From Gymnopus androsaceus JB14 (Eukaryota > Basidiomycota > Agaricomycetes > Agaricales > Omphalotaceae), in assembly GCA_009733575.1 (NCBI GenBank), contig ML769425.1:62001-126000 (forward strand): DNA of 64,000 nt. The letters are read 5' to 3'. A model generated the notes under the pieces. The model did not search any database and was not told where the DNA came from. It saw only the letters and a list, made by a program, of their open reading frames with translations. Below are positions 16,988 through 59,030 of this stretch, in pieces; the first letter of the stretch is position 1; every line of letters starts with the position of its first letter. The translations under genes and the position numbers were made by a program.

Positions 16988-17310
16988 TGTTAAATGTTGA
17001 CGGGCGTTTAGTGTGGCGCTGTATGTTTGGTTTGGCTTTCCTTTTCGGGTTCTATGTTCTTATTTGGTAATCTTTATTTGTTTACCGACGTGACCTATTT
17101 TCCATACTATATAAAGCTGGGCACATCAATTTCCCGCTTCCCTCAGTTCCATCATTATGACTGAGGGTAAGCTTCTTACTTCTACTTTCTCTTTCATTAT
17201 TGACTTTACCTATAGCCCTTGTTGTATTCATCGCGTCTATAGGTAATAAACAGTTCCATCATTACGACTGAGGCCCTCGTTGTATTCATCGCGTCTATAG
17301 GAATTTCACA
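16988..17310 (+). repeat. Copia 1 5' LTR with promoter and doubled leader
   Basis: TATATAAAG lies at 17,108-17,116. A likely start region, CCCTCAGTTCC, lies about 30 bases downstream (17,140-17,150). Leader copy A is 17,144-17,166 plus 17,216-17,243, split by an intron (17,167-17,215). Leader copy B, 17,251-17,301, is the same 51 bases with the intron exactly absent. Its differences from the 3' LTR are all transitions at CpG sites. Confidence 0.9.
17167..17215 (+). other. 49-nt intron inside the copia 1 LTR leader
   Basis: It begins GTAAGC, ends CCTATAG and has TTGAC near the 3' end as a possible branch site. Removing it gives ...GACTGAGG/CCCTCG..., exactly the sequence found undivided at 17,251-17,301. 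The 3' LTR has the same intron at 21,993-22,041. Confidence 0.85.
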
Positions 17311-20400: not shown

Positions 20401-21826
20401 AAAAGTTTTGAAAACTAAAGCGCGTTACGTCGCTAGAGGCGATATGCAAATTGCGGGTGTGGACTACGAGAAGAGTTGGTCGATGGTCGCGCGTGTGGAG
20501 TCGGTTTGTATGCTTATGGCGGTCGCAGTTGGCCTCGGACTGGAGATGAGTCAATGGGATTTCTCGTTGGCCTACTTGAACGGGACTTTGCCAAAGGATC
20601 CGCCAGTTTATATGCGTCAGCCTACCGGTTTTGCTCAGATGGGGGAGGAGGCGAAAGTGTGTCTGATGCAAAGACCTCTATATGGAATGGTACAAGCAGG
20701 CCATATTTGGTACAACGAACTAGAGGACCAGTTCAAGAAACTGGGCTTCAAGTCCTCACGCGCCGATCCTTGCATTCGATCTCGATTCGACCCTGCTTCT
20801 GGTCGTAGGACCATTGCGTCCGTCCACACCGACGATATTTTTGCGGCTTCGACAGATAGAAAGGAAGCGGAGAATGCAATTCATGGCTTCAGAATCTGGG
20901 ACCTGAAGGACGTCAAGGATAAGAATGTCCTCCTTGGATTAACTATCGATTACTTGCCAGATGGTTCAATTGGCGTTACGCAAGCCCCGTTCTTCCTCAA
21001 AGCTTTCAAATACTTTGGTATTCTCGACGATCTTCAACCACTGTATACTCCATTCCCTCCCAGCTACTCTATACCTGCGAGAGGGAAACGATCGAAGGAG
21101 GATGACGCGTTCATGAACGACAAGCCATACCGAGGTTTACTGGGTTGTTGCCAATGGGGGAGTGGATGCAGCAGACCGGACATTAGTTTCGCATGTTCGA
21201 GTCTGGCGACGGTTCAAAATGAACCGTTCCCCGAGGATTGGGACCTCCTCATCAAACTATGCCGTTATATTCTAACGACAGTGCATTACGGAGTGAAGTA
21301 TAAACCTTGCGTGGATAAGAAGGTTACGACGGTGGGCTATTCGGATGCGGATTGGGCTGGTTGCAAAGCTACGCGTCGGTCGACCTCTGGATATATATTC
21401 TTGATGAATGGTTGTCCTGTGGCGTGGGCTTCGAAGAAGCAAAATTTAGTTTCCTTGTCGTCGACGGAATTGGAGTATATTGCATTAGCAAAATGCGTTC
21501 AGCAAGCTATCTGGATGGCGAGTTGGTTACGAGAGGTGGACTTGGACATGGGAGGACCGATGGGTTTGCTGGTTGACAACCTAGGAGCGATTGCGTTGTC
21601 GGAGACGACGAAGGGGCACAACTTGGCCAAGCACATTGACATCCGGTACTTCTTTATTCGGGACGCTGTCAAGGAAGGACAGGTATCCATGTATCCGGTG
21701 GCGTCTTCTCAGAACCTTGCGGACATTATGACCAAGTCGTTATCCAGGGAGAAGCATCATCGCATTGTGACTGCATTGGGTTTGGATTGGTGGTATAACG
21801 ACGCCAGGGGGAGTGTTAAATGTTGA
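17447..21826 (+). pseudogene. Copia 1 Gag-Pol polyprotein, one in-frame stop
   Basis: One frame of 1,460 codons is interrupted only by TAA at 17,834-17,836 in gag. Domains in order: Gag; zinc knuckle CENCKRSGHSQKQC (near 18,190); protease with IDSAAS in place of the usual DSGAS; GAG-pre-integrase HIHFGH...CGKCEVC; integrase DLWG, RIDLGREF and VERANRT (Asp, Asp, Glu); reverse transcriptase with VHTDDI where most copia elements have YVDD; RNase H SDADWAGC, STELEYIA, LVDN and AKHIDIRYFFIRD. Copies without the stop would probably be active. Whether HTDD supports full polymerase activity is uncertain; the second Asp pair is kept. Confidence 0.92.
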
Positions 21827-22136
21827 CGGGCGTTTAGTGTGGCGCCGTATGTTTGGTTTGGCTTTCCTTTTCGGGTTCTATGTTCTTATTTGGTAATCTT
21901 TATTTGTTTACCGACGTGACCTATTTTCCGTACTATATAAAGCTGGGCACGTCGATTTCCCGCTTCCCTCAGTTCCATCATTACGACTGAGGGTAAGCTT
22001 CTTACTTCTACTTTCTCTTTCATTATTGACTTTACCTATAGCCCTCGTTGTATTCATCGCATCTATAGGTAATAAACAGTTCCATCATTACGACTGAGGC
22101 CCTCGTTGTATTCATCGCGTCTATAGGAATTTCACA
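21814..22136 (+). repeat. Copia 1 3' LTR
   Basis: Same length as the 5' LTR with 7 substitutions. In six of them the 5' LTR has the TG or CA form, and in one the 3' LTR does. It holds the same intron and intronless leader pair. Confidence 0.95.
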
Positions 22137-33374: not shown

Positions 33375-33856
33375 TGTCAAACAAAGTATATAAGTAAAGT
33401 TATCCTCAGCACAACACAAGTATAAGGTGTCAAAAAGACTCAATATATTAAAGGGATAAGTACCTGTCAAATGGAGTATATAAGTAAAGTTATCTAATAA
33501 ACTAGTTAGCTTTGTAAGATGACAAGTAATAATAAGATACTCACCCTCAGCACAACACAAGTATAAGGTGTCGAAAAGACTGAGGGCAAGGATCGTGGAA
33601 GGTAGGTTTATATGCAAAATGTCCGTAACAACCAATCTAGCGCAGCAGGTCAGTCGTACCAAATATGTAGCAAGATTGAAATAGAATAGTGAAACGAGGA
33701 GAGGAAACGTTAAGCCATACGTGTATGATAAACGAAATGTAGAGACAAGGAAAAACGGAATAGGAAAAGGGAAAACTTATGGTATATTCAACCGGAGACT
33801 GGGATCTCCGGTGGGACTCAATCACTAACTTACGCTTTGACTGTCTATCTTCAACA
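33375..33856 (-). repeat. Copia 2 3' LTR
   Basis: The leader intron is at 33,494-33,544 and the intronless repeat lies next to it, as in the 5' LTR. Confidence 0.95.
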
Positions 33857-35378: not shown

Positions 35379-38186
35379 CTACATGGCTTTCACATAGCTT
35401 TTTGGAACAGGAGGGATTCCCAGAGCGGTAAGTGCGGAATTTGATTTGAAGGATACTTTGTTGAATCCTTGGACCAAGGTTGTCAGACTGGCTTGAGGTT
35501 GGGATGCATCAGGAGTAGGTGGAATGGCTTGATGATGAGCAGAACAACGGAGAGGAATGTTTGGATCAGGGATGAATTTCATTCGAGTACGACGAGCTGG
35601 ATGCTCAGGAACTGGACTCTTGTCAGGGGTTTGATCGGAAGACGGAGTTTCCGGTTGATCGAGGATTTGATTGGAGGAGGATTTGATTGTGGCGTCGGTG
35701 GCATCAGGGGGCATCAAATCAACAACTTCCTCATTGTTCATCTCTTCCTCCCCTCCGCCTGGCGACAGTGTACGGTTAGGTTGTCCTTCCTCAAACACTA
35801 CATCTCGACTCAAAATAATCTTTCCGGAGGGTAAGTACATCAAGTATACTCCCCTCTCACCATATCCAACCATTCTCCCCTCAACCGCTCGATTATCCAA
35901 TTTACCAGGTGTCCCATCAACAATTGTTGCCCATCCTTGCACTCTGAAAGGTCTTAGATGAGAGATGTCCTGGCAAATACCAAGAAAGATTTCAGCCAGA
36001 ATACGAAAGCCATTTCGAGCTGAAGGTAGGAGGTTCTCTGTGTATACGATGTAAGCCGCTGCAATTGCCCATAAGAAAAGGGGTAAACTGGAGTTGTCCA
36101 GGATGACACGAACTTTGGCAAAGGTGACAGCATGTCTCCTTTCTGCCACCCCATTTGCTGCTGAAAAATATGCCGGGGTATGCTCGATTTTGATCCCAAG
36201 TCCGTCAGCCCACTTCCTCCACTTTTCGTTGATGAACTCTTTTCCACCATCAATCTGGATCACCTTCAACTTGTTTCCAGTTTGCCTTTCCGCCATAACT
36301 CGATACAAATCCATGCACAACAACATCGTATCAGCCTCCTTGTTTGCGGTATAGTAGTCTTTGTTAAAGGAGGAGCAGTCGTCAACCACCGGCAGGGAAT
36401 AGTAGAATCCCCCTCGGGCCATGGTGCACATAGGTCCCATTAAATCGAGATGAACTTTTGCTAACACTTCTTCTTCCACAGGCACAACACCATCAAATGG
36501 TTGTTGAACAGCAGCACCCTTTAAGCAGTTTACGCACTTCCCTTCAAGACTACCACCAGGTTTGACAACAAACCCATCAACGAGGTCCTTGTTCCAGAGA
36601 AGTTCAATACGGTGAGCTCCTGCATGAGCCAGACAATGATGCCAGGTAGCGAGGTCAGTCGGCTTGTTCAAGGAACATGACTTCGCAGCAAGGGATACCA
36701 CAGTAAGGGCTTTGGGTTTCTCTTTCAGCTTGTATAACCCTCCTGACCCCATTCCAGTTAGGAAATGAGTCCCCGCAGGCGAATAAAACTTCGCACATCC
36801 TTTCCCGAAATGGATTTCATAACCGAGCTGGTCAAGCTTTGCAATGGAGATGAGATCAGACGCGACGGTCGGGCAGTGTAGGGCATCCTCGAAGATAAGA
36901 ACTACTTCCTTCCTGTTCTCGATTACAACCTTTTTGGCTCTCCCCACTCCCTTTATACACAGGGCCATGGATTTCTCGGAGGAGCGACCAATACAGTTGC
37001 ATGGTGTATAAGTCAGGAAGTTGTCCCGGTTCCAGAAGAAATGGTCAGAAGCACCTGAGTCGGCGAAGAGTTCCCCGGGCTGGTAATTGTCAAGGGAAGC
37101 GGCCATCCCATAGTGTTGGGTAAGTTCGCCTATAGCCATAGATGCCGAGGGTATCTCAGATGGGGAATTTAGAGAAGGTATAGTCGTATCCTTCTTATCT
37201 CTCCACCAGGCCGGATACTGACCTTCCTTTCCCCCTCCCTTTCTAAAGCAATCCTCCTTGATATGTCCTGTACGTCCGCAATTGTGACATTTCTTGTCAC
37301 TATTTCCTGACCTCACCATTTTTGCAGCCACCAAGTTTTCCAATTGCTCGATCTTCAACAGCAAGGCCACATGAGGGGATGTTGCTGCATGGGCCTGGGC
37401 AATACGGTCCCCCGAGACCACAGCATCAGGTCGGTTCTTGACTTGCGAATACTGGAAGGTAATTTGCTGGATTACAGATGCCGCAGAAGGATATTGGGAT
37501 TCGTTTGCCATGATATTCTGAATAATACTGTTGAAAGCTAGCATAGGGAATGCAGCAATGATGATTTCTCGGAATGTCTTGTCCTCGATAGTATTTCCTG
37601 CTTCCACAGCCTCCTTCCTGATTTCCCTGAGTTGTTTGAAAAACTCGTCAATCGGTTTGGCCTCCTGGAACACAAAGGAACGGAGACGTCGTTCGGTAAG
37701 TACCTTACGCATTCCGTCATTCTTTGCGAATTCTCCCTCCAGGGTATTAAAAACCTCTTTAGCAGTTTTGTCGTCAATGTTAGGCATCAGGGAAGGTAAA
37801 TTGTTGATGTGCGATTCGACAATCCCTTTTGCTCTATTGTTTCTGAACACCCATTCCTCTAGGGAAGGTGTTAGGGAGAACACTGCAGTTGCTTTGGAGG
37901 TTTTGGTTGAAGTAGGAGTTGGAGCTGGTGCAGTCGCAGTTGCTGTTGTAGTCACAGCAGCAGTCGTGGTTGCGGGAGGCAGAGGAGGCGGGGGAGGAAT
38001 AGGAATAGGTGGACTAGGAGAAGGTTTAACGATGGATCCATCAGTGTATCCGAGGAGACCTTGGGTTTTGAGCGAGTTCACAATCCTTTGTTTAACCAGA
38101 GCCCAGCCAACTTTGACTCCTCTGTCAAACTTCAGGTCTGCGGAAACCTCAGGTATAGGAGGCGGGATAGCGCCGTTACTAGCCAT
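35379..38186 (-). CDS. Copia 2 Gag, protease and integrase
   Basis: Open for 935 codons from ATG 38,186. Gag comes first, with a proline/alanine-rich tract at residues about 50-95 (PSPPIPIPPPPPLPP). Next are zinc knuckle CHNCGRTGHIKEDC; protease FADSGASDHFF; GAG-pre-integrase WHHCLAHAG...CVNCLKG; and integrase HLDLMGP, QIDGGKEF and GVAERRH (Asp, Asp, Glu). TAG at 35,379 (AM-stop-DPDHW) separates it from the RT part in the same frame. Integration functions look intact; reverse transcription is lost. Confidence 0.88.
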   Translation of the reverse strand: MASNGAIPPPIPEVSADLKFDRGVKVGWALVKQRIVNSLKTQGLLGYTDGSIVKPSPSPPIPIPPPPPLPPATTTAAVTTTATATAPAPTPTSTKTSKATAVFSLTPSLEEWVFRNNRAKGIVESHINNLPSLMPNIDDKTAKEVFNTLEGEFAKNDGMRKVLTERRLRSFVFQEAKPIDEFFKQLREIRKEAVEAGNTIEDKTFREIIIAAFPMLAFNSIIQNIMANESQYPSAASVIQQITFQYSQVKNRPDAVVSGDRIAQAHAATSPHVALLLKIEQLENLVAAKMVRSGNSDKKCHNCGRTGHIKEDCFRKGGGKEGQYPAWWRDKKDTTIPSLNSPSEIPSASMAIGELTQHYGMAASLDNYQPGELFADSGASDHFFWNRDNFLTYTPCNCIGRSSEKSMALCIKGVGRAKKVVIENRKEVVLIFEDALHCPTVASDLISIAKLDQLGYEIHFGKGCAKFYSPAGTHFLTGMGSGGLYKLKEKPKALTVVSLAAKSCSLNKPTDLATWHHCLAHAGAHRIELLWNKDLVDGFVVKPGGSLEGKCVNCLKGAAVQQPFDGVVPVEEEVLAKVHLDLMGPMCTMARGGFYYSLPVVDDCSSFNKDYYTANKEADTMLLCMDLYRVMAERQTGNKLKVIQIDGGKEFINEKWRKWADGLGIKIEHTPAYFSAANGVAERRHAVTFAKVRVILDNSSLPLFLWAIAAAYIVYTENLLPSARNGFRILAEIFLGICQDISHLRPFRVQGWATIVDGTPGKLDNRAVEGRMVGYGERGVYLMYLPSGKIILSRDVVFEEGQPNRTLSPGGGEEEMNNEEVVDLMPPDATDATIKSSSNQILDQPETPSSDQTPDKSPVPEHPARRTRMKFIPDPNIPLRCSAHHQAIPPTPDASQPQASLTTLVQGFNKVSFKSNSALTALGIPPVPKSYVKAM

Positions 38187-38287
38187 GGTTAGGTTTCAAG
38201 ATGTAAGGATGAGGTGACGTAGATTTTTGAGTAATGAGTCTAGGATTTCTTGTGTCATTTCTTCGTAGGTAAATTCAGCTGCGGGCG

Positions 38288-38299
38288 GGGCCCATAACC
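38288..38299 (-). promoter_or_regulatory. Copia 2 primer-binding site for an initiator tRNA-Met fragment
   Basis: On the coding strand GGTTATGGGCCC directly follows the 5' LTR. It is complementary to GGGCCCAUAACC, the anticodon arm of eukaryotic initiator tRNA-Met. Copia elements are known to prime with a 5' half of this tRNA, so this supports the same mechanism. Confidence 0.75.
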
Positions 38300-38781
38300 T
38301 GTCAAACGAAGTATATAAGTAAAGTTATCCTCAGCACAACACAAGTATAAGGTGTCAAAAAGACTCAATATATTAAAGGGATAAGTACCTGTCAAACAAA
38401 GTATATAAGTAAAGTTATCTAATAAACTAGTTAGCTTTGTAAGATGACAAGTAATAATAAGATACTCACCCTCAGCACAACACAAGTATAAGGTGTCGAA
38501 AAGACTGAGGGCAAGGATTGTGGAAGGTAGGTTTATATGCAAAATGTCTGTAACGACTGATCTAGCGCAGCAGGTCGGTCATACCAAATATGTAGCAAGA
38601 TTGAAATAGAATAGTGAAACGAGGAGAGGAAACATTAAGCCATACGTGTATGATAAACGAAATGTAGAGACAAGGAAAAATGGAATAGGAAAAGGGAAAA
38701 CTTATGGTATATTCAACCGGAGACTGGGATCTCCGGTGGGACTCAATCACTAACTTACGCTTTGACCATCTATCTTCAACA
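38300..38781 (-). repeat. Copia 2 5' LTR with promoter and doubled leader
   Basis: On the coding strand CATATAAAC is followed by CCCTCAGTC about 30 bases later. Leader copy A consists of 38,470-38,506 and 38,390-38,418, split by the intron at 38,419-38,469. Leader copy B, 38,300-38,365, has the same 66 bases undivided with two transitions. A 24-nt linker lies between them. Confidence 0.9.
38419..38469 (-). other. 51-nt intron inside the copia 2 LTR leader
   Basis: It begins GTGAGT and ends TTATTAG, with CTAAC near the 3' end as a good branch site. Removing it gives ...GTGCTGAGG/ATAACTTTAC..., the exact sequence of leader copy B. Confidence 0.85.
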
Positions 38782-47612: not shown

Positions 47613-50020
47613 CTAATCTTCGTCAGATGAATCCAAATCCACCATCATCTCTCCGAGTCCTACACCAGCCCTCTGCTCCGCACCCATACTAGCGCTGGGA
47701 CCAGGCGCGTTCCTAAACTTTGGCTGGTTCAACGGCAGGTTTGAACACTCCCGAACGAATCTTGGGTCCCGGACGGGGACCAAGGTTAACTTCCTTTCGA
47801 CCTTTTGTTAAAGCAGCGAGATCAGCCATCTGAAACAATGGTGAGGATCAGCTTAAGCGGAAAAAAAGTTCTATAACCGACCTTTTTCTGAACATCCTCA
47901 CTGCTCTTCCTTTGCGGCCCAAGTTTCATCGCGACAGGATCAAATCCAAGACTCTTGATCATCTCCGGACGATAACGAGCCGCGGCAGGTAACTCCTTTG
48001 GCTCTTCCTTCTCCTCCTCCTCCTCATCATCATCATCATCCTCGTCCTTCCTTGATTTCCTCTTCTTCGACAGCTTCATCTCCTTATTCGCCTTATCAAT
48101 AGCCTCTCTCGCCTTCAAAATACTCTTCACATGGCTCCCATTATCCTGCGCCGTTTCCTTCTTCAGCATCTTCTTCAACAACGCATCCTCCTGTCTCCTC
48201 GCCTCAGCACGCTGTGCCCGCGCTTGACCTTCTCGACCCATTTGTTCCGAAACGTGCGCCGCATCAACAGTGTTGGAGTTGTTGATGACATGCCCAGAGA
48301 GAACATACGTTGCACCTGTCTCTCGTTCGTATGCGCTGGAAGGACCGGCTTTACCAAGGGCTTCTCCCCGAGGGAGTAGGCCTGTTTTCCGAACGGGATC
48401 GTAGTTGGATTTGGAGTCGAATTTGCGTTTGACAGCAGGGGTGTTGGTCATACCAGATGTTCTAAGCGTTATGGTCGGTAAGAAAAAAAAAACTCAAGAG
48501 GCGAACAAAAAAAAAGTCTCCTTACCCGATAGCGAATTCGGACCTAGCTGCTCTCCGGTTCTGTACCGCGTTGGTGACATGCCATTCGCAGACATTCGAA
48601 ATACGCTTGTCACACCATGAACCGCATGCCGAACCGTCTCGCTTCTTGACCATACACATGCCAAGGTCGAGACTGCGGCCGATATGGGTTATGGAGTTGG
48701 CGTTGGTCGGAGTCACAGCGAGGATATTATGTACTGGATGAGGGTTAGACGATGATGAATTCTAATACTAATTGTCAGAACTTGCTTCAGGTTGTACAAA
48801 GAGCATTCGCATACCGTAAAAGGCTTCATGATCCTCGGATTCAACAGTGCAATAACATCTCCCTCCTTCAACCTTGACATGACCTCGAAAGCACCCCCGC
48901 TCCCACCTCTATACACTTTCCGTGGCTGGGCTAGTTTCTCGCCGTACTCTTCCGTGACTAGATCGAATGCCTCGGCTTCGAAAAGCAACAACGTCAGAAA
49001 CGCGTCGCCGCGAATATGAGCTTTGGTTCCAGTCGATGAAGAGGAGCGCGAGCCGAAATCGATAAGTTTGACATTGACGTATCGTCGTCTCGGATTCGGC
49101 GCGTTCGACGGCTGTTTCTTCTTGGTCCATTTCTCCTTGCCTTTAGTAACGCTCGGTTCGACCATCGTCTTCAGCCTCTTCCTCCTTTCCAATACCTACT
49201 GGAGGATTCGTGTACTTGATAGGCCCACGTTCAGCTACCACGGCAATGGTTATCCAGTCTCCGTCCACGGGCACGTCATACCCAGTCTTGTCAGGCAGGA
49301 GGCTGATGCAAGAGTAGAGACGAGAGGGAGAAAGATAGTAACGACCACGGAGATGGTCCTGTAGATCTTCATGAGGTAAAATACGAGATCTGTTTCGTGT
49401 TAGATACAATGTCGTGTTAAGTGAATGAAACGCACTTTAAGCGAATGCCAGAATTCGGTTCGACACGCTCAAAGTGCGGATCGTCGAATGGAGGCTTGTG
49501 CTCTACTGGGCCAGGTTCAAGCGATTCAATGATCGCAAGGTCTTCGTTTCGTCTAGATGAAGCGGGAGGTATGATTTCGGCTGGTTTGTCGGTGAAGGAT
49601 GTCGTTCGTTGGACAGATTTCGAAGAGTCCTCTTCCGAGTGTAGCTTTGAAAGCTTTTGGACTAGATTTGAAGGAGCCAATTTCGGTGGAGCATAATCGG
49701 GTTTTTCTGCGGTTGTTACATGTTTCGCTGTACTGTTGACCTTTGACACTGCAGCGCTCAAGACAGGCCGTCTCGGCTCCTCGAGCTTCCTCTTCTTTCC
49801 TGTAAGGATATTAGCTTGAAAACTGTAGAAAGAAAATCTACAACATACTGGGAGAAGGAGTACCAGGGACTAATAAACCCGAATCTGCTGCTTTTGGTTT
49901 CGGCGAAGTGGGTATTGGTTCATCGTTATCAGATAGTTGAGACTGTAACAAAGCGATTTGGTTGCGCAAAGCTTCCTTTCTTTCCTTCTCTTTGAGAGCT
50001 AGGCTAGCAACAGATTCCAT
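47613..50020 (-). CDS. mcm10: Mcm10, DNA replication initiation factor
   Basis: Six exons on the minus strand: 49,849-50,020; 49,436-49,799; 48,815-49,389; 48,526-48,761; 47,882-48,461; 47,613-47,829. The N-terminal region has a coiled coil (LALKEKERKEALRNQIALLQ). The OB fold runs from RLKSRILPHEDLQ through GDWITIAVVAERGPIKYT to RLKEGDVIALLNPRIMKPF. The Mcm10 zinc finger is DLGMCMVKKRDGSACGSWCD...CEWH. The C-terminus is basic with an Asp/Glu run. Mcm10 binds the CMG helicase and DNA polymerase alpha at replication forks in the nucleus. Two one-base insertions break the frame: near 49,185 (before LERRKRLKTMVEPSV) and near 47,723 (before QPKFRNAPGP). Both sides of each stay conserved or coding-like, so they may be errors. 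The start, MESVASLALKE, is the first ATG of exon 1. Confidence 0.88.
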
Positions 50021-53000
50021 GAAGGCAATAAACAAGCGCGTCGTTAGACGCGAGATCTCGGTCAGGTGCACTAACCCCTTTTGGTTCCGCTTTCAATCTC
50101 CGCTCCTTCCTTCTCATTGGCTCCTTGCGAATCTCTCCGTAGAATCTTCTATAACCTATCTGTCCTTTATTTATTAGTCTAAATTTGTAGAATAGCACAC
50201 TGTGTACGGCCGAGAATAATTTCTTGCCTGTGAGCGGCATACATTTTTTATTTGCGAGTTTGAACAAAATTCGGCAATCCCCGAACAATGCTGCTTTGCG
50301 CTAGAAAAACGCAGACGACTCAGATTACATTTCGGAACACAGCTTGAAATCAAACTACCACCTTCCCGAATGGTTTCTCTGGACTCTCCTATTTCCACTT
50401 CATCCTTTCACTCTAACACCACAAACTATCCTCATTCTGAGGACGTAACTGAATTAGAGGGCGCGGCTTTTTTACTCAGTGCTGCCGCTATGACAATAAA
50501 TGATTCTCCACAATTTCTGGATCCGTCGAAAACTGGGTCCAGCTCAGACGCTACTGCATCGTCAAGTTCTCTCGATAAATCACTCGCGTGGCGTCTTCGT
50601 CACTTTGATTATTCGCTTGAAGCTCTGCAAGAACTTCGCTCTCGGTTTTTCAAAAACGAGCATCTCTTGCCCGACGATGAATTCTGTCTATCTGCGTCCA
50701 GTGTAAGTTGACAGATTTCTTTTATTTTCAGGCCCTTCTAGCCTCCGAATCTATGGTTGTCTTTACTCACACTGAATTCCTTTTTTTTTCTGGGCTCTGC
50801 TAGATCATGGACCTTATAGAGGCAAGTATTCTCGACATCCAGTGTGGATTTTTTTTCTCCGAAGCTTACATTTTACGGCCAGATCGCAAAATCCACACTA
50901 GAAGACGTCGGTATAGACTTGTGGCCGCACTCTCTGTGTTTCGTCTCTCTTCGTCCACACAAGAAAGCTTATTTTGCTTTGCTCAAATTATTGCGGAGTC
51001 GGACGGATTGCCTGAATACTCAGCTACGAGGTCAGTGTCAATGTCTCCCCAAGTGACTTTCAACTCGTTCGAGTGATGATACATCGTTTTTAAAATAATT
51101 CTTTCGGGTTTCCATATCTCCATCGAGGCGGAGTATCTTCCTTCATTGACGGAGTGTTTAAATCAGTGCTAAGCCTGATCATCCTGCTTCCGAGTCCGTC
51201 CATTTGATGGTTGAATTCAGTTTCCCGTTTACATATAGCATTCGATCACATTGACTTGTCATACTTACCGTTGCCTTTTCCAACAGCACGCAGCCTCAGG
51301 CTTACCTGTCGTCTTTCGACGAATTTTTCTATCCATCTTGACCCTGCCTATGATTTTTACCTGCCTCCAAAGCCACGGAGGCCTAAACGGAACATGGACT
51401 CTTCACAGCCCCAGCAGCTCAAGGAAGTATGTCGAAGCATGCCTCGTAAGTAGTTTTTCTCACCACGCCCAGGTACTGGGGATCATATCGGCCTCAGGCT
51501 ATTTTTTCTCTCCCTCTATAATAATAGACAGACACTGACTCTTATTCCTACCCCTAATAGCACCCGACGCTTTTCCGCCTTCTGGCTTTACGCCTATATC
51601 TTCTCGCTCGCTTATAAGTCCACAACGGAGACGAAAAAGGATGTGCCTCGATTTCTCCAGTGAGGTTTGGGATTCTCTGGCTTTGGTACCCCTACGGTGC
51701 CCTACCGCGGCAGCTGCATCCAAGTCTTCATAATAAACTGCACACCAGTGCATCAGCGTCCGGAAATCCGAGTCCGAATCGACGTCCAGCAGCTGGAAAC
51801 AGTAATACCTTCAAGAAACAGCGTTTCGGTATTTTTTGCACTGGAAAGACCGAGTTTGGGCTTGGCGGTCGAGTAAGGGTGATCAGTATGGGTGCGGGGA
51901 AGCAGTCGTATCGAAGGTTCTGAGTTTGAATCTGAGCTGGCTCCGAACTGGGGAGTCGGTTACTCGGGGACCAGGCGGATTTCATGCTTTGTATCTTTAA
52001 TGGGTTCATTATGGTTTACCGCTTCTTTTCTTGGTTTTGCTGGATCTGGAGCCCAGCGTGAGCTTGAGAGGTCTTCAGGTTCCTTACTTACCAGCCCACA
52101 TTCGTATGTATTTTGATTGGATTGTCGGATTTTCCAAATACTACATTACTTGTTGTGATAATCGTTGCAAAAAAAAAAATCTAAATCTTCAAGTTGTATG
52201 AAACGATAGGAGTTGTAGATCTTGAACGCTTGAGCCTGAATATTTTGTAGATATGGATTCAGAGCTGCCTGTGAGGTTTAGAAACTGTGAATCGAAACCT
52301 AGTATTTTTCATTCCCGATCTACCAACCCTTTCGTATTATACAATTTTTTAAAACTTCAACTTCCAAGTACCCTAGTCCGTGAACATCCCTCCCTCATGT
52401 TCAGGCGGCACCCTTCGAACTAGACCTCGATTTACTAGTCTCCGGTGTCCGCTGCCCAGCACGTATCTCATCCAACTCGACTCTCCACTGTCTAAACCTC
52501 CTCAACAACTCATTCTCATCCTCCGATCCACCAACAGACGACTCCTCCCTTTCGAGAATATCAACAACGTTTCCTAGTGCATGATCGACTTTGGCGAATG
52601 CCTCACGCATGAGAGAGGATTCCCGATGAGGGTTTGGGAGCTGTTTGAGCGTCCGGTGCCAGGGATGGTGTGGAGGTGGGCTGTCACGGTAATTAATTTG
52701 GATTAGATTGGACAGGAAGAAGATGTGCGTTGGGTTAGAAGCGTAATTAATGAGGACCGTAGATAGCAGGTAGGACGAACCAGGATGAGGATCGGATCTA
52801 GGGTAGACCTAAGAGATTGGGGGTGATGTAGCTTTTGGTACGTATGGCTAGATATAACTAGTCACAAACCTTGGCCAGGATTCTCGACTGTCGGTGAAGG
52901 AGGAATGTCAAGGCTTCCGACGGAGGTAGGAATTTCGCTTCGGCTGTACGGAGGGATCATTGGATGCAAGCATGAACGAACGCTAAAACCGTTGTTGCGT
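49930..53000. repeat. Tandem segmental duplication, copy 1
   Basis: It aligns over nearly its whole length with 56,180-59,070 in the same orientation. It spans the first exon end and promoter of MCM10, the unknown gene at 50,370 and the 3' exons of the membrane-protein gene. Confidence 0.9.
50370..51923 (+). pseudogene. Unknown basidiomycete protein, copy 1 (frameshifted)
   Basis: Exon 1 starts at ATG 50,370 (MVSLDSPISTSSFHS) and the exon pattern is the same as in the intact copy at 56,695. Exon 2 has one extra T in the T run near 50,850, and exon 4 has a 10-base tandem insertion near 51,690 (CGGTGCCCTAC); both break the frame. Comparison with copy 2 shows mostly synonymous change in exons 2 and 3, so the gene was under selection after duplication. 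The family is unknown. Confidence 0.65.
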
Positions 53001-54126
53001 GATGCAGCGTGAAGCTTGGCGCATACTCGCCCTGGACTTGCGAGATGAGATATCTTCTTGTTGCGGCAAAAACCTACGAAGTGAAAAGCGCGACAATGAA
53101 TGCAAGAGTCGCAATGCATCGAGCAAGCTTACTTCTGTCATCGTAAGCAAGGCTCTTTCTGAGAGTTGATAGTAGTACAGGGCACACAGGTACCTTGTTG
53201 TCGTCATTCGCAGAACCATTGTGTATACCCACAAGAGGGGACGACAACATAGTCATGTATCGGTTCATCAGACATATCCATGGTGGTCGTAAGAAAATAA
53301 AATTTGATGCGATTGTATGGCTACATGTACAGAATGCCCAGAACTATCGTTCACGCTACATGACTTTGTCGGGATACAAATCGATTGAAAAGACAAAAAA
53401 AATCAGTCTTTCCTCAAGTCCACTTACGCTCCGACCAGCGGAGTTAATCAATCCGAGCGCGTACATATATCTCTTGCGAAGTCGTGGAGAAGCTAAAACC
53501 ACAAAGATGAGAGGAAGGACGAACATGAATCACGGAATTTGGACATACATAACGTTAGTGTTATGCCACGGCCGACTTCTTTCTTGCGTAGTACGATTGG
53601 TCACCGTGCGCATGACGGCTGAAAAAATGAGAAAACGACATCGTACTCGTAGGATTGAACATACCTCCAACCCCGAACGTTCGTCTAGTCTTTGCGCCAG
53701 ACTGTGAAAGTAGCTCAAGATCAAAGGGACGGTCGAGGAAACGTTTACAACTGACCTTGACTGGACCAACGATGGACGCGCTCGTGTTCTCCTTCAAATT
53801 GGGCCTCAAGAATTTCCTCTTCTAGCAATTGATGAGGTCAGATAATTAAATTCGACATCTAACAAAATAGTAAAACTTACCTTTGCCATCTGGATCTCTT
53901 CTGGTTTCTCCTTTCCATCTTGGAATGCAGTCTTACGATTCCGCTGAGGATGCAGGTGAGATGATAATTCAATGACAAGGGCGATCGTACCTTGGGTGGA
54001 GTGACTGGTCCTGAGAGGGAAAGCCTCGTCTTGCTTACCTAAAAAATCAACGGAGATAAGAATCCGACAAAACAACAGAATGATAAGGTCTACCATCGCC
54101 AAAGCCGTTTCTTCAGAGGCCGCCAC
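52401..54126 (-). CDS. Predicted membrane protein, structure partly resolved
   Basis: Consistent exon pieces on the minus strand: a frame with LIILLFCRILISVDFL; then RNRKTAFQDGKEKPEEIQMA; KRKFLRPNLKENTSASIVGP; SGAKTRRTFGVG; VMRTVTNRTTQERSRPWHNT; then FMFVLPLIFVVLASP (membrane-like); later CIATLAFIVALFTS (membrane-like); and a C-terminal cytoplasmic part with MREAFAKVDHALGNVVDILE ending at 52,401. TGA near 53,531 separates VMYVQIP from FMFVLP, where Trp (TGG) would keep the frame. The junction at 52,680/52,868 does not keep phase. Family unknown. The start and exon order are provisional. Confidence 0.4.
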
Positions 54127-54413
54127 TTTACAAGAAAGCCGCTTGCTCCGTCTCTATCATGGATGCTCCGATTTAGAACGCCATCCAACGATAATGCAAA
54201 AAACCACATACCAATGGGGGATTCACCTCCTTACGTTCGAAAGCCGGAATCTTGAAACTCTCCATTTTCCTCCGAACCTAAGAGATTGGTTGAGAAAGAG
54301 TTGTAGCGAAGTTGTAGCGAGGGTGTATTTACCGATTCTGGGGAGTGCTCATCGTCCGAGGGAAGGAAGTCCCTACTTGGTTGATCAGCACTGAAAAGAA
54401 CCAAGTGCGGGAA

Positions 54414-54940
54414 TTAAACATACCACCGTTGCAAGAGGTGAGAGAATTCGTCAAGGTACGTATTGAACAATTGACGGATGACCGTGCTGTCGTACTCGCC
54501 TCTTCCTAGTAGAACAACGAAGGAGCGAGTTCGAGCCTTGATACTGCTGACAGACAGATCCAAGCCGTCCCGCAGTGCGATGCGCTTGAGGATCTCAGGG
54601 ATGCTATCCTTGACAGTAGTGAGACTAAGCTGAAAACCAATTATATCAGCAATGGAGAATTAATCAGGCTTGTTGCAAGGCCCACCTCGTAAAAGACAGT
54701 CGAAGTCTTCCTCGATACGTCCAACTCCAGCAGATATGCTTCTACGTGATCCTCAATGATAGCGTACCCCTTCGTCTCAGATTCCTGAATGACGTTCTTC
54801 AAGCTTCGGAGCTTAGTAATGTCCTCGGGCATTGCAAGTGATGGTGGCGGATGGTATTGTATACTACGTTTAAGAGACTGGAGCATGGCCGCCTTCAAAT
54901 CTGCATTGCTGGTTATAGATTTGACGTATTTCGTGGGCAT
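54414..54940 (-). CDS. Small hypothetical protein, 156 residues
   Basis: Exons 54,686-54,940 and 54,414-54,629, joined in frame over a 56-nt intron. The start MPTKYVKSITSNADLKAAML and the end FNTYLDEFSHLLQRWYV frame a charged, probably helical protein without membrane spans. I do not recognise a domain. The frame is fully intact, unlike several neighbours. Confidence 0.65.
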
Positions 54941-56179
54941 CCTATCGAAAGAATAAGTAGAGGAAATCTTCACTCATAGATATTTCGAGAACTGCCTTAT
55001 GAGAGGGCTGTTAATCTAAACTGGTCAAATGAGTAAAGGCGAGGCCGCTTCGACGACTAGAGATTTACGCACGAACGGTTGGAGAGGGACAAGAGAGGAT
55101 AACCAGCAAAAGCGAGAACAATGCGCGACTTGGAGGCTCAGCGTGATTGCTTGAAGAGAAAATTGACGCGCTAAAATTATAAAGTAAGTTGGATAGACAA
55201 CAAAGATAGCTAATGCGCGACTCGGAAGCTCACAAAGTCTGGAGAACGCGACTTGCGGACGGCCTAAGAGAACAAAGAGAGAAAGCTCATAAGAAATTGC
55301 AGTAAGCGAGACTCTATCCTGACCCTTACTTGAGGTGCCGCGCTGCGATGGTAGTGGTAGAAAAGAAAGAAAGAATAATGATGCAGGACGCCGATGATTT
55401 ACTTAAGTAGGTTCTTGGCACGTGTCCTTCTCGATTTGGACATGGCGTAACCCGAATTGTGCCGGTCAAAGCTGGTCTTATCGACCCAGTTCAATATTTG
55501 AAGATTCAGATCAAGTATATACTTGGAAATCGATTGTGAAGGTTCAACCGTCAGCATGTTTTGACGTAAGACCAATGATGCAGAAGGACACGCGTCGCAT
55601 ACTTGCATTCCGAAATCGTTCAACGTTCACGATCTTGCTACTTGCATAGGCTAATCCACAGGGAAAGAATATTAACGAAGAGTACTAAAAAAGATTGTCA
55701 GTATCTGTTCAAACTCTGAGGATATTTTAGACTTACTTGTTTCGTGTTCTATTTCTGCTTTCACCCTAGGTGGCCCGTGTCCAGAGCTGACAGCCTCTGC
55801 TAGGGGATGGGTCAGGATGATAGGTCGTTTAATTCATTGCCAATTTGGAATTTAGACCCATCGTTCCAATGTACAATGACGAGCCTATCACCCCACGGCT
55901 GCCCGCTGGACGAATGAACAACCCAGGGCCCGCCAGAACCTCTCAATGGGTTAGGCATCGTCTCGCGCCGTGATACTAAGTATAGGGCAGCCCTACATAT
56001 GGAGAACACAGTTTTAATTGTACGCAGTCTACGGGATAATTATGCGCGGTTTGCGAAATTAAGCTCCTAATCGATCACCATAGAGGCCCCTTTAACCTCT
56101 GACCCAAAGCGTCAACTTCAAGTAGATTTCACACACAGAATGAGGAAATACGGGAGCGCAAATCAGATATTTTAGATTG
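54941..56179. other. Intergenic with possible small minus-strand exons
   Basis: Minus-strand frames at 55,812-56,009 (PLRGSGGPWVVHSSSGQPWG) and 55,399-55,623 are open, and some exon-like ends occur. No family or consistent gene model emerges. Confidence 0.3.
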
Positions 56180-56185
56180 CAAGAA

Positions 56186-56260
56186 ATCGATTTGTTTGCG
56201 CAAAACTTCCTTTCTTTCCTTCTCTTTAAGAGCTAGGCTAGCAACAGATTCTATGAGCGC
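56186..56260 (-). pseudogene. Stub of MCM10 exon 1
   Basis: It matches the 5' part of exon 1 (ESVASLALKEKERKEVLRKQ-like on the minus strand). The ATG has become ATA at 56,252-56,254, and nothing of the rest follows. Confidence 0.8.
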
Positions 56261-56694
56261 GTAACTTAGACGCGAATCGGTCAGGTGCACTAACTCCTTT
56301 TTAATCTCCGCTCCCTCTTTCTCATTGGCTCCTTGCGAGTCTCTCCGTAGAATCTTCTATAGCCTATCTGTCCTTTATTTATTAGTCTAAATTTGTAGAA
56401 TAGCACACTGTTTACGGCCGAGAATAATTTCTTGCCTGTGAGCGGCATACATTTTTTATTTACGAGAACAAGCAAAATTCGGCAATCCCCGAACAATGCT
56501 GCTTTGCGCTAGAAAAACGCAGACTCGGATTACATTTCGGAACACAGCTTGAAATCAAACCACCACCTTCCCGAATTGTTTCTCTGGATTCTCCTAATCC
56601 CACTCCATCCTTTCGCTCTAAAACTACAAACTATCCTCATTCTGAGGACGTCACTGAAATAGAGGACGCGGCTTTTGCACTCACTTCTGCCGCT

Positions 56695-58102
56695 ATGACA
56701 ATAAATGATTCTCCACAATTTCTGGATCCGTCGCAGAATGGGTCTAGCTCAGACTCTACTGCATCGTCAAGTTCTCTCGATAAATCACTCGCGTGGCGTC
56801 TTCGTCACTTTGATTATTCGCTTGAAGCTCTACAAGAACTTCGCTCTCGGTTTTTCAAAAACGAGCATCTCTTGCCCGACGATGAATTCTGTCTGTCTGC
56901 GTCCAGTGTAAGTTGACAGATTCCTTTTGTTTTCAGGCCCTTCTAGCCTCCGAATCTATCGCTGTCTTTACTCACACTGATTTCCTTTTTTTTTTTCTGG
57001 GCTCTGCTAGATCATGGACCTTATAGAGGCAAGTATTCTCGACATTCAGTGTGGATGTTTTTCCTCAATGCTTACATTTTGCGGCCAGATCGCAAAATCC
57101 ACACTAGAAGACATTGGTATAGACTTGTGGCCGCACTCTCTGTGTTTCGTCTCTCTTCGTCCACACAAGAAAGCTTACTTTGCTTTGCTTAAATTATTGC
57201 GGAGTCGGACGGATTGCCTCAATACACAGCTACGAGGTCAGTGTCAATGTCTCCCCAGTGACCTTCAACTCGTTCGAGTGATGATACATCGTTTTAAAAA
57301 TAATTCTTTCGGGTTTCCATATCTCCATCGAGGCGGAGTATCTTCCTTCATTGACGGAGTGTTTAAATCAGTGCTAAGGATACTTCCGAGTCCGTCCATT
57401 TGATGGTTGAATTCAGTTTCCCGTTTACATAGCATTCGATCACATTGACTTGTCATACTTACCGTTGCCTTTTCCAACAGCACGCAGCCTCAGGCTTACC
57501 TGTCGTCTTTCGACGAATTTTTCTATCCATCTCGACCCTGCCTATGATTTTTACCTGCCTCCAAAGCCTCGGAGGCCTAAACGGAACATGGACTCTTCAC
57601 AGCCCCAGCAGCTCAAGGAAGTATGTCGAAGCATGCCTCGTAAGTAGTTTTTCTCACCACGCCCAGCATATCGGCCTCAGGCTATTTTTTCTCTCCCTCT
57701 ATAATAATATGCAGACACTGACTCTTCTTCTTACCCCTAATAGCACCCGACGCTTTTCCGCCTTCTGGCTTTACGCCTATATCTTCTCGCTCGCTTATAG
57801 GCCCACAACGGAGACGAAAAAGGATGTGCCTCGATTTCTCCAGTGAGGTTTGGGATTCTCTGGCTATGGTACCCCTACCGCGGCAGCTGCATCCAAGTCT
57901 TCATAATAAACTGCACACCAGTGCATCAGCGTCCGGAAATCCGACTCCGAATCGACGTCCAGCAGCTGCTAGTGGAAACAGTAATACCTTTAAGAAACAA
58001 CGTTTCGGTATTTTCTGCACTGGAAAGACCGAGTTTGGGCTTGGCGGTCGAGCAAGGGTGATCAGTATGGGCCCGGGGAAGCAGTCGTATCGGAGGTTCT
58101 GA
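56695..58102 (+). CDS. Unknown basidiomycete protein, copy 2 (intact from an internal start)
   Basis: Exons 56,695-56,907, 57,011-57,236, 57,481-57,639 and 57,744-58,102 give 318 residues with all phases matching. The upstream start used in copy 1 is changed here from ATG to ATT, so I place the start at the next in-frame ATG (MTINDSPQFLDPS). The N-terminus is Ser-rich. The middle (KSTLEDIGIDLWPHSLCFVS, YFALLKLLRSRTDCLN) is hydrophobic-helical, followed by DPAYDFYLPPKPRRPKR. The tail has GPQRRRKRM (possible nuclear signal) and a conserved end, KKQRFGIFCTGKTEFGLGGR. The function is unknown. Confidence 0.65.
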
Positions 58103-58493
58103 GTCTGAGTCTGAGCTGGCTCCGAACTGGAGGAGTCGGTTACTCGGGGACCAGGCGGAGACTCGAGATTTCATGCTTTATATTTTTAATGGGCTCATAT
58201 CGTGGTTTACCACTTTTTTCTTGGTGCTTATATTTTGCTGGATCTGGAGCCCGGCGTGAGCTTGAGAGGTCTCCAGGTTCCTTATTTACCAGCCCAAATT
58301 TGTATGTATTTTCATTGGGTTTGTTGGATTTTTCAAATACTATTACTTGTTGTGATAATCGTTTAGAAACCATGAATCGAAACCTATTTGATTTTTCATT
58401 CCCGATCTACCAACCCTTTCGTATTTTACAACTTTTTAAAACTTCAACTTCCAAGTACCCTAATCCGTGAACATCCCTCCCTCATGTTCAGGC

Positions 58494-59030
58494 GGCACCC
58501 TCGAACTAGACCTCGATTTACTAGTCTCCGGTGTCCGCTGCCCAGCACGTATCTCATCCAACTCGGCTCTCCACTGCTCCTCAACAACTCATTCTCATCC
58601 TCAGACCCACCAACAGATGTCTCCTCCCTTTCTAGAATATCAATAACGTTCCCTAGTGCATGATCGACTTTGGCGAATGCCTCGCGCATGAGAAAGGGAT
58701 TTCCGATGAGGGTTTGGGAGCTGTTTGAGCGTCCGGTGCCGGGGATGGTGTGGAGGTGGGCTGTGAGTAGTATGGATTAGATTGGACAGGAAGAAATGTG
58801 CGTTGGGTTAGAAGCGTAATTAATGAGGACCGTAGATGGCAGGTAGGACGAACCAGGATGAGGATCGGATCTAGGGTAGACCTAAGAGATTGGGGTGATG
58901 TAGCTTTTGGTACGTATGACTAGATATAACTAGTCACAAACCTGGCCAGGATTCTCGACTGTCGGTGAAGGAGGAATGTCAGGGCTTCCGACGGAGGTAG
59001 GGAATTTCGCTTCGGCTGTACGGAGGGATC
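58494..59030 (-). pseudogene. 3' fragment of the membrane-protein gene, copy 2
   Basis: It carries MREAFAKVDHALGNVIDILE and the preceding exon end, SPTVENPGQ. Eight bases are missing near 58,575 compared with copy 1, which shifts the C-terminal frame. No upstream exons. Confidence 0.75.

Follow-up and report, generated by a model that had tools for sequence, protein, structure and literature searches.

The window, that is, the whole 64,000-nucleotide stretch of Gymnopus androsaceus JB14 DNA analysed here (contig ML769425.1, positions 62,001 to 126,000 of the forward strand), contains two Ty1/copia-type retrotransposons, copia 1 and copia 2. Each of their long terminal repeats (LTRs) holds a leader sequence, A, which a short GT-AG intron (intron 1) divides into A1 and A2, followed by a spacer and by a second copy, B, in which A1 and A2 are joined. 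The features of copia 2 are listed below; a caret marks an observed or predicted exon–intron border.

38300..38781, minus strand: 5' LTR, TGTTGAAG...TTTGACA, 482 nt, with TG..CA ends
38530..38539, minus strand: TATA box CATATAAACC, letters read directly, putative promoter element
38505..38515, minus strand: 5' arm CTTGCCCTCAG of a predicted RNA hairpin (the masking hairpin), straddling the predicted transcription start (+1) at 38506
38470..38506, minus strand: A1, first leader exon, 37 nt, beginning at the predicted +1
38419..38469, minus strand: intron 1, 51 nt, GTGAGT...GCTAAC...TTATTAG, its exact removal recorded in copy B
38389..38418, minus strand: A2, second leader exon, ending ACAG^GT
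38388-38366, minus strand: spacer
38300..38365, minus strand: copy B, spliced A1A2, 66 nt, ending exactly at the LTR end (TTTGACA)
38299..38388, minus strand: predicted intron 2, 90 nt, comprising the spacer, copy B and the first G of the primer-binding site (PBS)
38275..38299, minus strand: primer-binding region GGTTATGGGCCCCGCCCGC..., letters read directly
35379..38195, minus strand: gag-pol frame, 938 aa to the first stop, with copia gag, zinc knuckle and integrase
33375..33856, minus strand: 3' LTR
33375..33581, minus strand: A1-intron-A2-spacer-B of the 3' LTR, in the same layout as in the 5' LTR

The two LTRs of copia 2 are 96.9% identical in a pair comparison, and re-reading of the letters shows a 5-bp target site duplication (TSD), ATACT, flanking the element. 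The TATAAA motif starts 31 nt upstream of the predicted +1, and CTAAC within intron 1 is a branch-point-like motif. The domains matched in the frame are copia gag, rve and SH3_retrovirus, with RVT_2 presumably lying beyond the first stop. The primer-binding region presumably resembles that of Drosophila copia in being complementary to the 5' half of initiator tRNA-Met; a GGTTATGGGCC-like sequence directly follows 18 of the 33 copia-2-family LTRs described below, and no tRNA genes were found within the 64-kb window. The initial annotation had placed a 51-nt GT-AG intron at 38419-38469, splitting leader copy A, and had equated copy B (38300-38365) with the splice product apart from two transitions. 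Both statements stand on re-reading: the coordinates are right, and spliced A and B, with the next base included, differ at 2 of 67 positions, both by transitions. Three further features were absent from that account, namely the AG^GT at the end of A, a possible second 5' splice site, the potential for an AG at the point where B stops, and a hairpin predicted across the start site. It had also described the arrangement as common to copia 1 and copia 2 in unlike letters, and the order of parts in the two elements is indeed identical while the sequences are not:

16988..17310, plus strand: copia 1 5' LTR, same layout as copia 2, TSD ATTTG
17145-17166, plus strand: A1
17167-17215, plus strand: intron 1
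17216-17242, plus strand: A2
17243-17300, plus strand: predicted intron 2, 58 nt
17252-17300, plus strand: copy B
21814..22136, plus strand: copia 1 3' LTR, same layout, intron 1 from 21993

The copia 1 LTRs likewise have TG..CA ends and a 5-bp target duplication, and the element encodes, in order, gag_pre-integrs, SH3_retrovirus and then RVT_2 domains. The proteins of copia 1 and copia 2 are 27% identical over 790 positions, so that the shared layout must be old or must have arisen more than once. Both strands of the window were scanned for GT-AG segments, 40-130 nt long, with flanks that, once joined, occur again no more than 400 nt away (12 exact bases plus at least 17/20), and the three matches are all copia LTRs (both of copia 2 and the 3' LTR of copia 1); the 5' LTR of copia 1 has the layout and was missed through one change in the 12-base seed.

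The 83-Mb genome was searched with each LTR, and 40 of 40 copia-2-family and 39 of 40 copia-1-family matches were fetched, the locus left out being copia 1's own 3' LTR, which already lies in the window. The layout could be parsed in at least 62 of these 79 loci, comprising 33 of 40 in the copia-2 family and at least 29 of 39 in the copia-1 family, and such counts are lower bounds because only the best 40 of 78 copia-1 candidates were scored. By eye, the remaining 17 loci include six damaged A and B layouts (L010, L013, L020, L055, L056 and L070), nine single copies with the intron (L023, L025, L051, L052, L060, L062, L071, L072 and L079), one single copy without it (L038) and one rearranged LTR (L029). 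For a wider sample, 40 of the best 150 of 629 RVT_2 candidates were chosen by hand, not at random, and a 1.3-1.5-kb stretch was taken at the expected place of the 3' LTR, LTRs outside that stretch being missed. The full layout is present in 7 of these 40 copia 3' ends, falling by eye into four LTR groups (L086/L090/L100; L101; L103; L116/L118), and a form with one intron in 2 of the 40 (L110 and L113); L099 has the start motif, the hairpin and an intron-1-like 5' site, with no visible B. In the scan of the other 30 3' ends, one of them partly N, the GT-AG layout was absent. A first scan gave L090 a score of 34/36 with GT-AG and L086 the same score with its 5' site decayed to GC, against controls of up to 35/36 on opposite strands without the GT-AG filter and up to 26 in shuffles; at a second threshold of 29/32 with GT-AG, 5 of 20 sense strands pass versus 1 of 40 opposite strands. 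In another copia lineage, L082 and L097 carry a 5'-splice-site-like AG^GTGAGTAWTG(C/G)ATCTCACC in the LTR end region, sitting in its own GGTGAG/CTCACC stem; no A/B layout was seen there.

The initial annotation had left a choice between parallel events and a very old shared design, and had allowed that the pattern might be confined to the two elements in which it was noticed. The LTR survey finds it in further families and groups, and its presence in at least 62 of 79 family loci and 7 of 40 sampled 3' ends speaks for the old design. The groups have in common the +1 position, intron 1, a spacer starting with GT and the hairpin, while the letters of A and B change in concert. Because the start motif, the hairpin and AG^GT are common to the groups, the comparison favours one old origin of the layout over several.

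The relationship between A and B was followed through 33 copia-2-family LTRs (528 pairs, 65 columns, gaps counted). A differs at 20 or more of the 65 columns in 381 of the 528 pairs (mean 29.9), and 88% of the A changes in these distant pairs are matched in B. Inside one LTR of this family, A and B differ at a mean of 2.67 columns and are identical in 8 of 33. The copia-1 family (29 LTRs, 406 pairs) behaves similarly, with 80% of changes matched in B in the 162 most distant pairs, a mean of 1.72 of 51 columns different inside one LTR and 5 of 29 identical. Since A and B are near-identical within an LTR though distant copies differ at nearly half of the columns, B appears to have been rewritten repeatedly from spliced A. 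In close pairs, with A differing at 0-5 columns, just 15-39% of changes are matched, as expected of private decay after insertion. The A1–A2 junction is represented by 26 distinct 20-mers across 62 LTRs and recurs in the LTR's own B exactly in 41 of 62 and with at most two differences in 59 of 62, so that B has kept to A's precise exon borders even where the beginning of A2 has undergone changes and indels. This record in genomic DNA is evidence that intron 1 undergoes splicing and that the spliced RNA serves as a template for reverse transcriptase.

Several copies have the same A-B difference, at one site in L001/L003/L006/L008 and also in L031/L034/L036/L037, and L036 and L037 share five such sites. 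Either renewal is imperfect, or these copies came from one source whose two LTRs differed. Of nine presumed LTR pairs, seven lack any A-B difference common to both LTRs; L001/L003 have one in common and L036/L037 five, the latter being 16 kb apart and possibly not one element. LTRs whose A and B stem from different subfamilies were sought as proof of transfer between RNAs; B lies at least four columns away from the A of its own LTR in 13 of 62, and none was judged a clear chimera.

The sequence that follows A has features of an intron in its own right. When the end of B is taken from the B side and the same offset is read in A, AG^GT is found at the homologous A position in 61 of 62 LTRs, and the sole exception, L068, has AG^GT one base earlier. 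The spacers behind it come in 44 distinct versions that vary in length and letters, and their first hexamers, under a pattern demanding GT, are GTACTT (17), GTAAAT (15), GTAATA (13), GTAGTT (10), GTATTT (4), GTAATT (2) and GTAGTA (1). By eye, the further groups read CTCTAG^GTAAA, TTATAG^GTGAAT, GTTAG^GTACTT, CTATAG^GTAAT and CCAG^GTATGA. Because A ends AG^GT opposite the end of B, spacer and B together have the appearance of a second intron, and splicing would leave a leader A1A2-PBS; removal of this predicted intron 2 leaves A1A2 joined to the LTR tail and PBS, which is the sequence of B plus the tail. Branch-point-like motifs occur by eye in B (CTGAT in L100, CTAAG in L101, CTAAT in L103, CTAAG in L116 and TACTAAAC in L110). 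In the copia-2 family the acceptor AG spans the boundary between LTR and PBS, its A being the final LTR base and its G the first base of the PBS. In copia 2 itself, where the predicted sites are GTACTT and GACAG, it is present in the 5' LTR only, the same position of the 3' LTR reading GACAA, without AG. The copia-1 family and the other groups have the intron-2 AG inside the LTR, so that the 3' end of the RNA would need to fall short of this AG. The one-intron elements L110 and L113 consist of A-spacer-B alone, with spacer and B bounded by CCAG^GTATGA and TACTAAAC..CCAG; L114 holds a remnant of this design. Against a second intron, its 5' sites (mostly GTANTT, GTAAAT and GTAATA) have no G at the usual +5 position.

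A third spliced copy was found in 0 of 62 LTR loci, as expected if B leaves the leader before copying; otherwise each transfer to B would add one. Two other ideas were discarded. Direct splicing from the A1 5' site to the end of B would discard the latter half of B. A cap-templated G before B, considered as a universal mark, is present in 57 of 62 LTRs of the two families and fails elsewhere by eye, the base being C in L100, A in L101, C in L103, T and A in L116/L118 and A in L110.

Across the groups examined, sequence around the predicted start shows complementarity to the intron-1 5' splice site; in copia 2 the 5' arm is predicted to pair with CTGAGG^GTGAG at 38475-38465. Since the 5' splice site pairs with sequence upstream of the predicted start, a masking hairpin would be possible solely in the 3' LTR copy of the RNA. 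When upstream sequence is included, the predicted local stem reaches the splice site, and when folding begins at +1 most of the stem is gone, with mean local fold energies over 62 LTRs of -17.6 kcal/mol for the read-through form versus -5.3 kcal/mol from +1. Seventeen hand-chosen representatives were folded in detail and compared with 300 shuffles each of the upstream 30 bases. The read-through fold is the more stable in all 17 (for example -22.2 versus -8.0 kcal/mol in copia 2 and -26.0 versus -0.9 kcal/mol in L110) and beats the shuffles with z from -2.0 to -6.4, 0 to 10 of 300 shuffles reaching it. The splice site is less open in the read-through form in 16 of 17, the local order being reversed in L103 (0.20 versus 0.01). 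When 60 nt of upstream sequence are included, 50 of 62 LTRs show a less open 5' site in the 3' copy (mean 0.14 versus 0.23), and in 48 of 62 the site is less accessible than it is when the upstream bases are shuffled; long-context folding weakly favours masking.

The hairpin arms covary between groups, as in CCCTCAG/CTGAGG^G, CACCTCAG/CTGAG^GTG and CCCCAGAG/CTCTGGG^G, and L033 has CTTACCCTCAG with CTGAGG^GTAAG. In L110 and L113 the stem has 16 pairs, and its 5' arm occupies the region 9 to 27 nt upstream of A, wholly outside it. The CCCTCAG arm hardly varies inside the copia-1 and copia-2 families, which amounts to conservation and not to covariation, and this arm may be partly promoter. The A1 and B1 parts of the copia-2 family (L001-L041) also contain an inner stem, [CT][GA]ACAC/GTGT[CT][GA], within the leader hairpin, with some compensated changes and, by eye, a broken outer pair in several lineages.

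The layout, the precise junctions, the concerted evolution, the conserved AG^GT and the complementarity of the hairpin arms are read from the DNA. From them we construct a replication cycle of which the start site, splicing in vivo, masking, the 3' end of the RNA and the order of transfer are the presumed parts. Transcription would begin at the first base of A, cutting off the 5' arm of the hairpin and leaving the 5' site of intron 1 free. Intron 1 and intron 2 (spacer and B, bounded by the AG^GT that closes A and the AG that closes B) would then be removed to give a leader A1A2-tail-PBS. At the 3' end of the RNA the same LTR would be read through, the complete hairpin would hide the 5' splice site and intron 1 would be retained, while intron 2 would have no usable acceptor ahead of the RNA end. 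The strong-stop cDNA of A1A2 would pair with B at the 3' end, the 5' version of the terminal repeat R thus being A1A2 and the 3' version B. Extension of the cDNA through spacer, A2, intron 1, A1 and U3 would yield a new LTR, U3-A1-intron-A2-spacer-B, in which B is fresh from spliced A. B would be R and a record of the last spliced leader at once. We regard it as fairly probable that copia genomic RNA is spliced at its 5' end in this way and that the LTR, including its introns, is rebuilt in each cycle.

Transfer of incomplete cDNA to A2 would generate U3-A1-intron-A2-tail, and transfer to A1 would generate U3-A1A2-tail. Both forms exist, as a single copy with the intron in 9 of 79 loci and without it in 1 of 79, and plain deletion between repeats explains them equally well. 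L079, a 5' LTR with a single copy, and L045, a 3' LTR with A and B, belong to one insertion (TSD ACATC), and their mismatch in B requires a deletion after or during insertion. Against the proposed cycle, the intron-2 acceptor of the copia-1 family is also present at the 3' end of the RNA unless the RNA stops earlier.

Four other readings of these data deserve consideration. Direct repeats are prone to reverse-transcriptase jumps, and intron 1 alone might be spliced, the enzyme slipping from B to A on a leader A1A2-spacer-B during strong-stop synthesis so that the collapsed cDNA transfers to B with no second intron. We consider this unlikely: such jumps are common at direct repeats, and an A2/B2 jump or deletion would give the 9 of 79 loci without spacer and B, but the slip would be needed in nearly every cycle, and its failures would leave three copies, which are seen in 0 of 62 LTRs. 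It also leaves unexplained the GT straight after A (61 of 62 LTRs and five more groups by eye) and the intron signals on spacer and B alone in L110 and L113. The inverted repeat at the start site could, moreover, be a promoter palindrome unrelated to splicing, with intron 1 retained at the 3' end by other means or by selection against intron-free copies. The CTCAGT at the start, which we take to resemble a Drosophila-type initiator, also occurs in copia LTRs that do not have the layout (for example L094 and L097), and we grant this reading a real if minor chance, although the stem reaches the first base of the intron in 17 of 17 chosen representatives, its letters covary between groups, and in L110 and L113 the 5' arm, 9 to 27 nt upstream of A, is separate from the initiator.

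An origin of B in rare single events fares worst. Each lineage would have made B once, through a rare template switch in which spliced strong-stop cDNA jumped to the terminus of an unspliced LTR, and today's copies would be independent fossils; B does begin at the predicted +1 and equals the spliced product, as one switch would give. The same unlikely event would be required in every lineage, however, and intron 1 and spacer are alike by eye across subfamilies within a family, which implies that the layout was inherited while B was updated, and we hold such an origin to be very improbable. That the genomic RNA is unspliced, with the intron serving a separate mRNA and the likeness of A and B due to gene conversion or reverse-transcriptase jumps, has a precedent in BARE, which is reported to replicate unspliced RNA and to splice another pool (PMC3735527). 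We nevertheless judge it quite improbable, since conversion would often carry or delete the intron whereas B holds the exact exon borders, and since the hairpin straddling the start and AG^GT are left unexplained.

Returning to the proposed spliced cycle, these elements resemble Ty1/copia (Pseudoviridae, including Drosophila copia and Tnt1) in their copia gag, integrase before RVT_2, TG..CA LTRs and 5-bp target duplication; integrase-side domains precede RVT_2 in copia 1, and the duplications are ATACT, ATTTG and ACATC. They differ in that each LTR has one or two introns together with a spliced version of its own leader inside it. R of a textbook Ty1/copia element is one continuous stretch, identical at both RNA ends, whereas the sequences here suggest an R represented by spliced A at the 5' terminus and by B at the 3' terminus. 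Foamy viruses and HTLV/BLV carry a splice donor in R and are alike in having a 5' splice site inside the repeated end; we know of no acceptor, intron or spliced copy inside their LTRs.

A spliceosomal intron in a retrotransposon transcript is shared with Ogre, EVADE, BARE-1 and the copia gag mRNA, where splicing is reported to yield subgenomic RNAs (PMC12786077, PMC3735527). In contrast to Ogre, EVADE and BARE-1, the present elements have these introns in the LTR leader, ahead of the gag frame and not in the coding part, and we propose that it is the spliced leader that replicates. The BARE study holds that reverse transcription of spliced RNA is something retrotransposons have to avoid (PMC3735527). 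Penelope-like elements do keep introns through retrotransposition, and an antisense template has been proposed for them (PMC3846280). Unlike the present elements, they are not LTR elements with strong-stop transfer; copia 2 and copia 1 have a copia integrase and RVT_2, respectively, and no GIY-YIG match. The HIV-1 5'-end G and strand transfer are dealt with in PMC4668388. The earlier remark that no LTR class with this layout had been described accords with our literature search, in which no LTR with an intron and its own spliced copy was found among open-access titles and abstract openings. Two apparent hits were set aside: an "intron-containing LTR" proved to be the bacterial gene ltrB (PMC4256276), and a "spliced LTR" referred to human chimeric transcripts (PMC6771403).

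Copying via spliced RNA is expected to erase introns, yet several copia lineages here seem to replicate spliced RNA and to inherit their introns all the same. We give even odds to a general solution for keeping introns, in which a hairpin split by the start site distinguishes the 5' and 3' copies of a repeat, splicing is confined to one end, and a stored spliced leader serves as an R that is rewritten in each cycle. If true, the RNA ends of an LTR element need not match, R can be split into an interrupted and an uninterrupted copy, and a hairpin divided by the start site can act as a position sensor for splicing. The LTR would store genomic evidence of its own splicing, a rare DNA-only record of splicing and start sites whose signature could be searched for in any fungal genome.

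No relatives were found in viral contigs by tblastn, and the nearest named proteins to these elements are from Lentinula edodes, Collybiopsis and Pleurotus. Elsewhere in the window, at 49928-58895, direct repeat blocks about 6.1-6.2 kb apart and 88-99% identical resemble a segmental duplication.
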